Below are positions 5,191 through 7,789 of a stretch of 63,385 bases of DNA, one piece after another; within the stretch, counting starts at the first letter, position 1; each line of letters opens with the position of its first letter. Under the pieces are notes generated by a model that was not told the DNA's origin, made no database searches, and saw nothing but the letters and a program-made list of their open reading frames with translations. Made by a program: the position numbers and the translations under genes. Source of the stretch: an uncultured Granulosicoccaceae bacterium (GTDB taxonomy: Bacteria; Pseudomonadota; Gammaproteobacteria; Granulosicoccales; Granulosicoccaceae); contig CALIMV010000084.1 of assembly GCA_938045275.1 (NCBI GenBank), forward strand, positions 1 to 63,385. Reading direction: 5' to 3'.

Positions 5191-6477
5191 ATGAGCTCTT
5201 TATTCTCGATAACTAATCGACTTGCAACAGCGTTGTGTATTGTGCTGGTGTTTGTTTCTGCTTGTTCCAGTTCAAACAACAGTTCATCAGCCGCAGGCGT
5301 TAATTCAGACAATTCAGGTGCTTCCTCGGATGCCACTACAGACGAGACCATAAATGAAGCACCCACGAACGTTGAATCAGAAACAACCACGCCATTGCAG
5401 GACCCGCTTGATACAGACTCAATAGATTCAAACCCTGCAGTGCCCGACCCAATGGCACAAAATTCAATACGCGTAAATTTTGATATCGAAGTTCCCGCTT
5501 ATCAATCCAACAACTTGCAAGTCCGCCTGGTTTGGGGAGAGCAAACCATTAACGCAGATTGGATTGGCGATGAATTCTGGTCTGCCTCTGACGATTTTCC
5601 AACTGACACAGAACAATTATTGATCGCTACATTTTACGATGCAAATGGTGACATAACATTAGGCAGTGTTGAAACTGTTTTTAAAACAGGTACAAACGCA
5701 TCGATGTCTGTTCAAATTACCGCTGATCAGTTCAATACAAGTCGATGGGACAGTGATGGTGATGGGGTAAGTAACCTTGACGAATTAATCAATGGCTCCG
5801 AATCAACCGATGCCATACGCGTCTTACTCTTCAGCGAAACTCGCGGTTACCGTCATGATTCCATTGCTAGCGCAATTACAGCGCTTGAAGAACTGGCGGC
5901 GTCTGCCAATGTGCAAACCGATTATGCCGATGATTCTTCTGGCGTATTTACGGTTGCAAACCTTGCCAATTACGACGCAGTAGTCTGGGTTTTAACTTCA
6001 GGGGATGTGCTGAATACCAACGAACAAACCGCGTTTGAAAATTACATTCGGTCCGGAGGTGGTTATGCAGGTATCCATGCTGCAAGCGACACAGAATACG
6101 AGTGGCCATGGTATGGCGCACTGGTTGGCGCTTATTTCGACCGCCACCCGGAAATACAATCTGCTACTCAGTTTGTCGAGGACAGCGCTCATCTGTCAAC
6201 TGCCCACTTAAACCTAAGCTGGACGCGCACCGATGAATGGTATGACTACAGGACAAACCCACGCGCACAAGTGAATGTGTTGCTTAGACTCGACGAAGGC
6301 TCATACAACGGCGGTACAATGGGTGACGACCACCCCAGTGCGTGGTACCACGAGTATGACGGAGGGCGGTCCTGGTACACCGGTGGTGGCCATACAATCG
6401 AAAGTTACACCGAACCGGATTTTCGCGCACATTTGCTCGGTGGCCTGCGCTATGCAGCAGGAATTGATAGATTATAG
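5191..6477 (+). CDS. Secreted lipoprotein with ThuA-like domain
   Basis: A 428-residue lipoprotein. A hydrophobic signal peptide ends in the lipobox VSAC with Cys25, followed by Ser, which favours the outer membrane. Then come a Ser/Thr/Asn/Glu-rich linker (about 26-90), a beta-rich module (about 95-185), a calcium-binding-type loop DSDGDGVSNLDE, and a ThuA domain (about 207-425). ThuA motifs are VLLFSETRGYRHDSI, the GGGYAGIHAASDTEY block, DHPSAWYHEYDGGRSWYTGGGHT, and a conserved C-terminal LLGGLRYAAG. ThuA folds resemble class I glutamine amidotransferases without the nucleophilic Cys and are linked to sugar metabolism; the function here is unknown. ATG 5191 follows aggaaacaca. The next gene is 58 bases on and shares its N-terminal module. 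Confidence 0.8.
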   Translation: MSSLFSITNRLATALCIVLVFVSACSSSNNSSSAAGVNSDNSGASSDATTDETINEAPTNVESETTTPLQDPLDTDSIDSNPAVPDPMAQNSIRVNFDIEVPAYQSNNLQVRLVWGEQTINADWIGDEFWSASDDFPTDTEQLLIATFYDANGDITLGSVETVFKTGTNASMSVQITADQFNTSRWDSDGDGVSNLDELINGSESTDAIRVLLFSETRGYRHDSIASAITALEELAASANVQTDYADDSSGVFTVANLANYDAVVWVLTSGDVLNTNEQTAFENYIRSGGGYAGIHAASDTEYEWPWYGALVGAYFDRHPEIQSATQFVEDSAHLSTAHLNLSWTRTDEWYDYRTNPRAQVNVLLRLDEGSYNGGTMGDDHPSAWYHEYDGGRSWYTGGGHTIESYTEPDFRAHLLGGLRYAAGIDRL

Positions 6478-6535
6478 AATTTCCCTAATGACTATGATAA
6501 CTTGACCAGTTGGAGTAAGACTATAGGGACATCAT

Positions 6536-7789
6536 TTGAAACGCGTTTTACATCATATTAAATTGGTCGCCTTGTTAATTTTGTGTGGATTGCAACTATC
6601 CTGCGACAACCAAAGCTCACAATTTTCAATCAATCAAAACCAAGATGGATTGCAAGCCAACATAAGCATACCAAGTGATTTGGCAAAAGCTCGAATTTCG
6701 CCAGAACGCCTGGGAGTTGCTATTACATTGGATAATAGTGATCCGGTTATTCTTGAGAGGCAAGGTGAAAATTGGACTGGCAATTTTCCATTGAGGCCAG
6801 ACGCTACAACCAAGCTCGGTGTCACCTGGTTCTCAGGAAACGTGCATGTCGCCACAATGACTCGTCAGATCGAAATGAGTGAAAGCAACACAAACGAAAC
6901 GTTCTTGCCCACCGATTATATTTATCTTGATTCCGATAGCGATCAAATAATGAATATCGATGAGGTCGCTGCCAACTCCGACCCATTCGATGAAACAGTA
7001 TGGCCAAACACCAGCACTGTTGCCAGCATCAATTCCAACACCGGACTATTAGGTACAACGGGTTTGCGAGAATGGATTAACGTTTCTAATCCCATCGTTG
7101 AAATAGACGAGAATGCGCCATCGGTGAGTTTCACACTATACCGATCCGGCACGGCAACCTTGCCCATAAGAATTCGATATAGACCAGAATCGCGAACCGC
7201 TTCAAACGCGACGGACTACGATTCATCCACCGGGTTATTAGAGTGGCCAGTTGGTTCGTTCGATCAACAGTCCTTTGAAATCGCATTACAACAGGATGTG
7301 CACATAGAAAAAGACGAATATTTTGTTGTCAATTTAACCAACGAAGACGACCCTGATAACACTGACGTTTTTAGAAACCGAAACGTTATCATAGTCATTA
7401 TTAAAAATAACGGAGGAACGTTCGAGGTCTTAGAAAATGACACTTCAAACATCGAAGGCTGGTATGACGCAAGCACAGACAAATACGGTGTCAGCGTTGA
7501 CGCTCGAGTTGAAATTACCCCGTTCGGACAATACAACGTGTATCAAATCGTCGGCGATTGCTATGAGCTTTCCTCTCATTCAATTGAGACACTACAAGGC
7601 ACCTATTTTTTCGATCCCGCGTTATTTGTTGTAGGCGGAGGGCACTACCGAGCATTTACAAATAATGGTGAATTGAAGTTTAGCCGGATTTCCGATCATA
7701 ACTATGATGGTACATTCGATATGACATGGCCACGGATAGGTGAGCTAGGCGACCAACTTTTAGTAGATGGTGAACCTTGTGCTGGCTAG
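6536..7789 (+). CDS. Lipoprotein with Calx-beta-like domain
   Basis: A 417-residue secreted protein that starts with TTG at 6536 (MKRVLHH); no ATG is suitable. The hydrophobic stretch ends in GLQLSC with Cys23, an imperfect lipobox (Gln at -3). Asp follows the Cys, a residue that in enterobacteria keeps lipoproteins in the inner membrane. Residues about 35-125 repeat the layout of the upstream protein: a beta-rich segment, then the acidic loop DSDSDQIMNIDE. A Calx-beta-like domain follows (about 180-290: VEIDENAPSVSFTLYRSG, FEIALQQDVHIEKDEYFVVNL). The last 120 residues match nothing I know. It is probably co-transcribed with the ThuA gene. Calx-beta domains bind calcium and occur in surface adhesion proteins; the role here is unknown. 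Confidence 0.7.
   Translation: MKRVLHHIKLVALLILCGLQLSCDNQSSQFSINQNQDGLQANISIPSDLAKARISPERLGVAITLDNSDPVILERQGENWTGNFPLRPDATTKLGVTWFSGNVHVATMTRQIEMSESNTNETFLPTDYIYLDSDSDQIMNIDEVAANSDPFDETVWPNTSTVASINSNTGLLGTTGLREWINVSNPIVEIDENAPSVSFTLYRSGTATLPIRIRYRPESRTASNATDYDSSTGLLEWPVGSFDQQSFEIALQQDVHIEKDEYFVVNLTNEDDPDNTDVFRNRNVIIVIIKNNGGTFEVLENDTSNIEGWYDASTDKYGVSVDARVEITPFGQYNVYQIVGDCYELSSHSIETLQGTYFFDPALFVVGGGHYRAFTNNGELKFSRISDHNYDGTFDMTWPRIGELGDQLLVDGEPCAG

Follow-up and report, generated by a model that had tools for sequence, protein, structure and literature searches.

Neighbouring ThuA and Calx-beta lipoproteins of a Granulosicoccaceae bacterium belong to a family-wide set with a homologous beta module and an EF-hand/TSP3-type loop

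The two neighbouring genes described here, A and B, belong, with a probability of roughly two in three, to a set of modular lipoproteins of the cell envelope that spans the Granulosicoccaceae and whose members would consist of a lipid anchor, a tether, an Ig-like stalk, a Ca2+-stabilised hinge, and an interchangeable effector domain. Both genes are located on the forward strand of the window, which is the whole analysed stretch of 63,385 nucleotides from an uncultured Granulosicoccaceae bacterium. At the sequence level, the proteins show a common order of a lipid-anchor signal, a variable tether, a homologous beta module, an EF-hand/TSP3-type loop, and a varied C-terminal domain. Based on structure models, the beta module is predicted to be an Ig-like sandwich.

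Gene A (5191..6477, + strand) is an open reading frame of 428 residues. Its signal ends in the lipobox VSAC (5254..5265) with the putative lipid-anchor Cys25 and a serine at position +2. From the lipid cysteine a low-complexity tether rich in S, T, D, N, and E (5266..5457) leads to the Ig-like beta module of residues 90-186 (5458..5748), the start of which was set by profile and which is backed by the loop-free profile, by leave-one-out searches, and by the model. The EF-hand/TSP3-type loop DSDGDGVSNLDE, identified by sequence pattern, comprises residues 187-198 (5749..5784), and residues 210-422 (5818..6456) form a ThuA domain (Pfam PF06283, E 1.4e-72, 244.8 bits against a cut-off of 33.4). 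This ThuA domain is full-length and well conserved with respect to its family (Pfam PF06283; PDB 4jqs); in an alignment of 12 the conserved residues are kept, and identities to the 11 other ThuA domains are 54-79%. The difference to the family is that in A the ThuA domain sits behind a lipoprotein front end. The full-length relatives of A are Granulosicoccus/Granulosicoccaceae records with identities of 57-70% (best segment), and the remaining organisms among the listed matches align with the ThuA part. By these relatives, the source of the DNA belongs to Granulosicoccus or is closely related to it. Between the ThuA part (5818-6456) and actinobacterial ThuA proteins (Streptomyces abyssalis), identity reaches up to 64%, which hints at a lateral transfer of the effector.

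Gene B (6536..7789, + strand) encodes 417 residues from a TTG start. The lipobox QLSC (6593..6604) with the putative lipid-anchor Cys23 and an aspartate at position +2 is followed by the Ig-like beta module of residues 34-128 (6635..6919), which was recognised by the loop-free leave-one-out search and is all-beta in the model, and by the EF-hand/TSP3-type loop DSDSDQIMNIDE of residues 132-143 (6929..6964), again identified by sequence pattern. Residues 181-276 (7076..7363) are a Calx-beta domain (Pfam PF03160, E 2.1e-7, 31.4 bits against a cut-off of 27), and this region also matches NCX CBD chains in the PDB (e.g. 3rb7, E 6.9e-9). The likeness to the Calx-beta domains of Na+/Ca2+ exchangers lies in these residues, but B is not an exchanger and carries a single such domain in a lipoprotein. 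The C-terminal region (7418..7786), which contains two cysteines, has no family match in Pfam or NCBIfam. A kinship of this C-terminus to the C-terminal domain of C165 and C118, two other lipoproteins of this genome, was rejected, since the score of -0.8 bits is exceeded by many shuffles. A sequence-only reading of this DNA had noted the lipoprotein signals at the start of both proteins, the two loops, and a single N-terminal module joined to different C-terminal domains, and all three observations hold. It had also let both proteins begin with signal and module. Both do carry these two parts, but the module of A starts about 65 residues past the lipid cysteine, behind the tether.

It is confirmed by sequence comparison that A and B are homologous over an all-beta module some 95 residues long and that both carry the D-x-D-x-D-x3-N-x2-E loop. 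The direct BLASTP match of A to B is weak (E 0.026) and covers only the surroundings of the loop, and therefore the pair alone is insufficient to prove the similarity of the beta part. In the same genome, however, the N-terminal part of A finds C165 (E 9.9e-43) and C118 (E 7.6e-41), and the module of B finds C165 in a profile search (E 3.4e-4). A profile was built from 45 modules of 18 genomes that had been truncated ahead of the loop, with each target removed in turn (44 left). Against this profile the B module obtains 21.2 bits, corresponding to E 1.4e-5 for 1000 sequences, while the best of 1000 of its own shuffles reaches 9.9 bits; with A likewise left out, the values are 21.3 and 9.0 bits. 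These scores bear out the common N-terminal beta module that had been claimed earlier. A scores 127.3 bits, exceeding all 1000 shuffles (E 2.6e-37 against the loop-free profile that includes A itself), and ten of the 11 further members tested from this genome also exceed all of their shuffles. The exception is C329 (10.0 against 11.5 for the best shuffle), whose membership is the weakest. It could be argued that A and B converged, in that generic beta regions each came to be followed by a common TSP3-type loop. This would agree with a BLASTP match centred on the loop and with the strong divergence of the B module, which is at most 26% identical to any other module of the tree. Given that the beta parts without the loop beat 1000 shuffles in A, B, and ten of the 11 others, and that module and loop co-occur far more often than by chance, convergence is very improbable.

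The co-occurrence was determined for 112 proteins, which comprise those of this genome and the listed matches of 14 further genomes after removal of two duplicates. Two proteins below the threshold, L224 and L297, are outside the 112 and still have lipobox and loop. In 115 of 115 testable modules the loop follows according to a relaxed pattern and in 108 of 115 according to a strict pattern, a testable module being one with at least 30 residues after it (eight truncated modules were set aside). For the nine genomes outside the profile the numbers are 54/54 and 50/54, while random windows of the same proteins match the strict pattern in only 11 of 458 cases. Loop positions 1, 3, 5, 9, and 12 are D, D, D, N, and E in 114, 115, 114, 116, and 115 of 117 loops, respectively, and position 6 is glycine in 95 of 117. 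The loops of A and B have all EF-hand-type ligand positions, with B lacking the glycine at position 6. Against the TSP3_bac model of Pfam (PF18884) the loop of A stays sub-threshold (11.8, cut-off 25) and that of B has no match. In the 5.75 Mb of the own genome the loop pattern is present 19 times, 15 times directly behind a module, and the reversed pattern is not found at all. The loops without module belong to a response regulator (C158), a TSP3 array (C340), a protein on C298, and C187. The array (L329, G000 C340, around 19238) is a frame of 769 residues that consists almost entirely of TSP3-type D-x-D-x-D-G repeats and is open at both ends. By eye, the C298 protein (L027, G000 C298 276-353) resembles a beta propeller of the sugar-dehydrogenase type, with a TSP3-type loop behind it.

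Concerning the anchor, a lipobox was found in 103 of 110 members by pattern only. A strict lipobox is present in 63/110 members compared to 6/159 control ORFs, and a loose one in 106/110 compared to 47/159, where the controls are module-less ORFs from the same loci and include spurious ORFs. The distance from the lipid cysteine to the module has a median of 26 residues and ranges from 3 to 242. Some members contain two modules with a loop after each. In L271, L275, and L306, one or two modules with loops are present and the proteins end 11-14 residues later. Hardly anything is left beyond module and loop, and the module may be functional by itself.

The earlier reading had regarded the module as common to A and B, which is correct, but it is not confined to these two and is instead distributed over the genome and the family. 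Based on a profile containing the loop (A1), the own genome has 16 matches at E <=0.01, one of which (C298) is to the loop only. Because A1 picked up this protein by its loop (positions 119-144), the loop-free profile A2 was used for the distribution. The search for more genes with the module yielded 15 lipoproteins in this genome, namely A, B, C165, C118, C372, C482, C324, C251, C480, C342, C71, C65, C92, C194, and C329. The genome is 82% complete and the number of 15 is therefore a lower bound. According to Pfam, ThuA, Calx-beta, and Laminin_G_3 are each found at one C-terminus, CBM9_1 at four (C324, C342, C92, and C194), and FGE-sulfatase at three (C480, C71, and C65), and C251 contains BACON-type repeats. 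The C-termini of C165 and C118 resemble each other and have no family, as is the case for C482 and C329; a single borderline Pfam match of C482 was discounted. The FGE-sulfatase (formylglycine-generating-like) domains of L020, L022, and L023 (G000 C480, C71, and C65) are unusual behind a lipoprotein anchor. With A2, 47 of 48 Granulosicoccaceae genomes from all six of six genera were matched, with 1-17 matches per genome, including 28 of the 28 good-quality genomes of the family. Of 369 gammaproteobacterial genomes that were drawn, only four have matches, all of them Granulosicoccaceae, so that none of the 365 gammaproteobacterial genomes outside the family is matched. In a draw of 398 Pseudomonadota genomes, which overlaps the former, the own genome and one other (G635, E 2.0e-6) were found. 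The G635 protein was rejected as a member, since it is a long BIg-type repeat protein, which was taken to be a remote Ig-like relative. None of 36 genomes of other phyla is matched, which shows little as this search had no positive control. In the present sampling, the module is a signature of the Granulosicoccaceae.

Pfam families were surveyed for the 101 C-termini with a length of 80 residues or more, each of which can match several families. CBM9_1 was found in 31, TSP_3 in 15, FG-GAP_2 in 13, ThuA in nine, FGE-sulfatase in five, BACON_2 in three, and Integrin_beta VWA in two, with single matches to Laminin_G_3, Calx-beta, Big_9, Cadherin_4, and PD40. The C-terminus cluster c1 was obtained by single linkage, and L237 alone links its short domains without family to long C-termini. 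On the module tree the kinds of effectors change 24 times, compared to a minimum of 15 and a mean of 60.3 for shuffled labels. This strong clustering indicates that most of the set arose by duplication with the effector kept. The nine modules in front of ThuA domains are, however, scattered among the others, and constraining them to a single clade is rejected with an AU p of 0.023, which is moderate support given a poorly resolved module tree. In addition, the module of A is 63% identical to one that precedes a C-terminus of another cluster. Together, these two observations suggest module exchange or gene conversion among the ThuA-bearing members, again with moderate support. The set of genes expanded by duplication, with modules and effectors probably recombining at times.

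In the model of A (residues 85-213, pLDDT 76.4), seven strands precede the loop, which leads into a short helix. The model of the B module is all-beta with low confidence (pLDDT 65.8). Both modules are thus predicted to be beta sandwiches in the size range of Ig-like domains; unrelated folds of the two N-terminal parts, which would have spoken against the claim made from the letters, were not seen, although the model of B is too weak for proof. The best Foldseek match of the A model is a CBM20 starch-binding domain (8x8k_C, E 5.0e-6, TM 0.54/0.69), and comparisons to CBM20 by VIA gave a Z score of 9.9 (rmsd 3.9 over 92 residues) and one of 9.8 (rmsd 2.6 over 88 residues). The strongest rival reading is that the module is a carbohydrate-binding, CBM20-like sandwich and not a stalk, so that each protein would combine a binder with an enzyme or a second binder. 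Members that are almost module and loop alone and the frequent presence of CBM9-like and lectin-like domains alongside the module would fit to this reading. At the sequence level, however, no CBM20 match exists for the module. Pfam CBM_20 does not match any of 45 modules at E <=0.1, a search of the own genome found no CBM_20 domain, and the module profile aligns to one CBM20 sequence with a probability of just 3%. The only near-general aromatic site, W130 in A, is aromatic in 106 of 112 modules and has a core-like position, while the other tryptophan positions of A are aromatic in only 43/112 and 53/112. With one such site a conserved sugar-binding platform is improbable, as judged from conservation at the tryptophan positions of A. 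Also, the B model does not favour CBM20. It has no Foldseek match below E 1e-3, and the structures closest to it are sandwiches of C2, cytokine-receptor, and CBM31 domains (Z <=9.6, rmsd 2.7 over 99 residues). A C2 kinship of B, although at the top of this list with a Z of 9.6, was not adopted because the model is weak and C2 sandwiches are of similar size. Taken together, a carbohydrate-binding module is rather unlikely. The 45 modules have no significant match in Pfam, Big-type models included, and only chance-level matches in NCBIfam. The module profile reaches a weak E of 0.26 against the BIg50-52 domains of SiiE (PDB 2yn3), and hhalign aligned it to the BIg-type repeats of G635 with a probability of 28% compared to 0.3% for the best of 30 column shuffles. 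The sequence profiles thus lean towards bacterial Ig-like domains.

A and B are separated by only 58 bp on the same strand, and a scan for promoter and terminator consensus sites revealed no terminator-like site in this gap. Co-transcription is therefore possible in this genome, but this would be a local arrangement. The earlier reading placed both in one transcription unit as a surface pair. The proximity would fit a dedicated operonic pair working jointly at the surface, but neither such a functional pair nor a conserved transcription unit is supported by the comparison with other genomes. Among eight loci with a full-length A, seven have readable downstream sequence, and B adjoins A in none of these seven Granulosicoccus loci. 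A full-length relative of B is missing from 19 congeneric genomes, in which only pieces of the module or of Calx-beta were detected. In addition, the residues at position +2 differ, being serine in A (C-S-S) and aspartate in B (C-D-N). According to the E. coli +2 rule, aspartate favours the inner membrane. By analogy, A would be sorted to the outer membrane and B might be retained in the inner membrane, and a common surface location of the two is thus not given. A dedicated pair is very unlikely. Tandem pairs of module lipoproteins are also present in other genomes (L240 in G015 C12, and L225 in G029 C10), showing that adjacent paralogues recur with differing partners.

In the proposed working of these proteins, the lipid would hold the protein in the outer membrane, and the tether together with the predicted Ig-like module would act as a stalk. 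Ca2+ putatively bound in the D-x-D-x-D-x3-N-x2-E loop would stiffen and orient the joint between stalk and effector. Sea water is rich in Ca2+. There, the loop would be occupied and would thereby fix the angle between effector and stalk. External glycans would be bound or acted upon by the effector, which is ThuA in A, Calx-beta and a further domain in B, and a CBM9-like or lectin-like domain in other members. Some observations do not fit easily. A mere stalk would not explain L271, L275, and L306, and the aspartate at position +2 in 13 of 105 lipoproteins, B included, speaks against outer-membrane anchoring if the E. coli rule applies. It is conceivable, but unlikely, that the module goes beyond a stalk and serves specifically in this family for display or docking, being recognised by an envelope partner or a matrix glycan. 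In that case the Granulosicoccaceae would employ the module together with its calcium loop as a general plug-in platform by which unrelated effectors are brought to the cell surface, and modules would be exchanged between genes.

For the preferred reading of a stalk with a calcium-stiffened joint, one of the closest known designs is SiiE of Salmonella (PDB 2yn3), to whose BIg-BIg joints the role of Ca2+ is likened. According to PMC6272769, the BIg domains of SiiE are stabilised by Asp-bound Ca2+. They share with the module a size of about 100 residues and a conserved tryptophan, as well as an Ig-like beta sandwich and an Asp-type Ca2+ site, both of which are putative in the module. However, SiiE is one secreted adhesin of 53 repeats, while the proteins here usually have one lipid-anchored module whose sandwich is followed by an EF-hand-type loop, and their effectors are interchangeable. 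In marine carbohydrases of Saccharophagus degradans such as laminarinases (PMC2386152), TSP3-type Ca2+ loops are also present and serve as linkers, and these enzymes resemble the present set in combining TSP3 motifs and lipoboxes in modular envelope or secreted glycan enzymes. They differ in that their TSP3 repeats stand in tandem between CBM and GH modules, whereas here a single loop is tied to one domain family. Glycan-related effectors would be consistent with a kelp-associated life (PMC9238374). The module is a new domain family, although the building plan of lipoprotein, Ig-like domain, Ca2+ loop, and variable domain is composed of known kinds of parts. Among the matches listed by full-text searches of PMC, which mostly lacks subscription papers and preprints, no description of the lipoprotein set, its lineage restriction, or the coupling to the loop was found, and the set with its common front end is apparently undescribed.

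The presence of the module in nearly all genomes of the family, followed by CBM9-like, lectin-like, FG-GAP, and enzyme domains, provides a direct lead to the surface toolkit of the Granulosicoccaceae, and the module family would give a name to lipoproteins that are otherwise annotated as hypothetical. The proposed calcium-stiffened display design is testable. A 7.8 Mb genome of the genus that is assembled into one contig (G405) has eight A2 matches, which may allow these proteins to be studied in a cultured strain.
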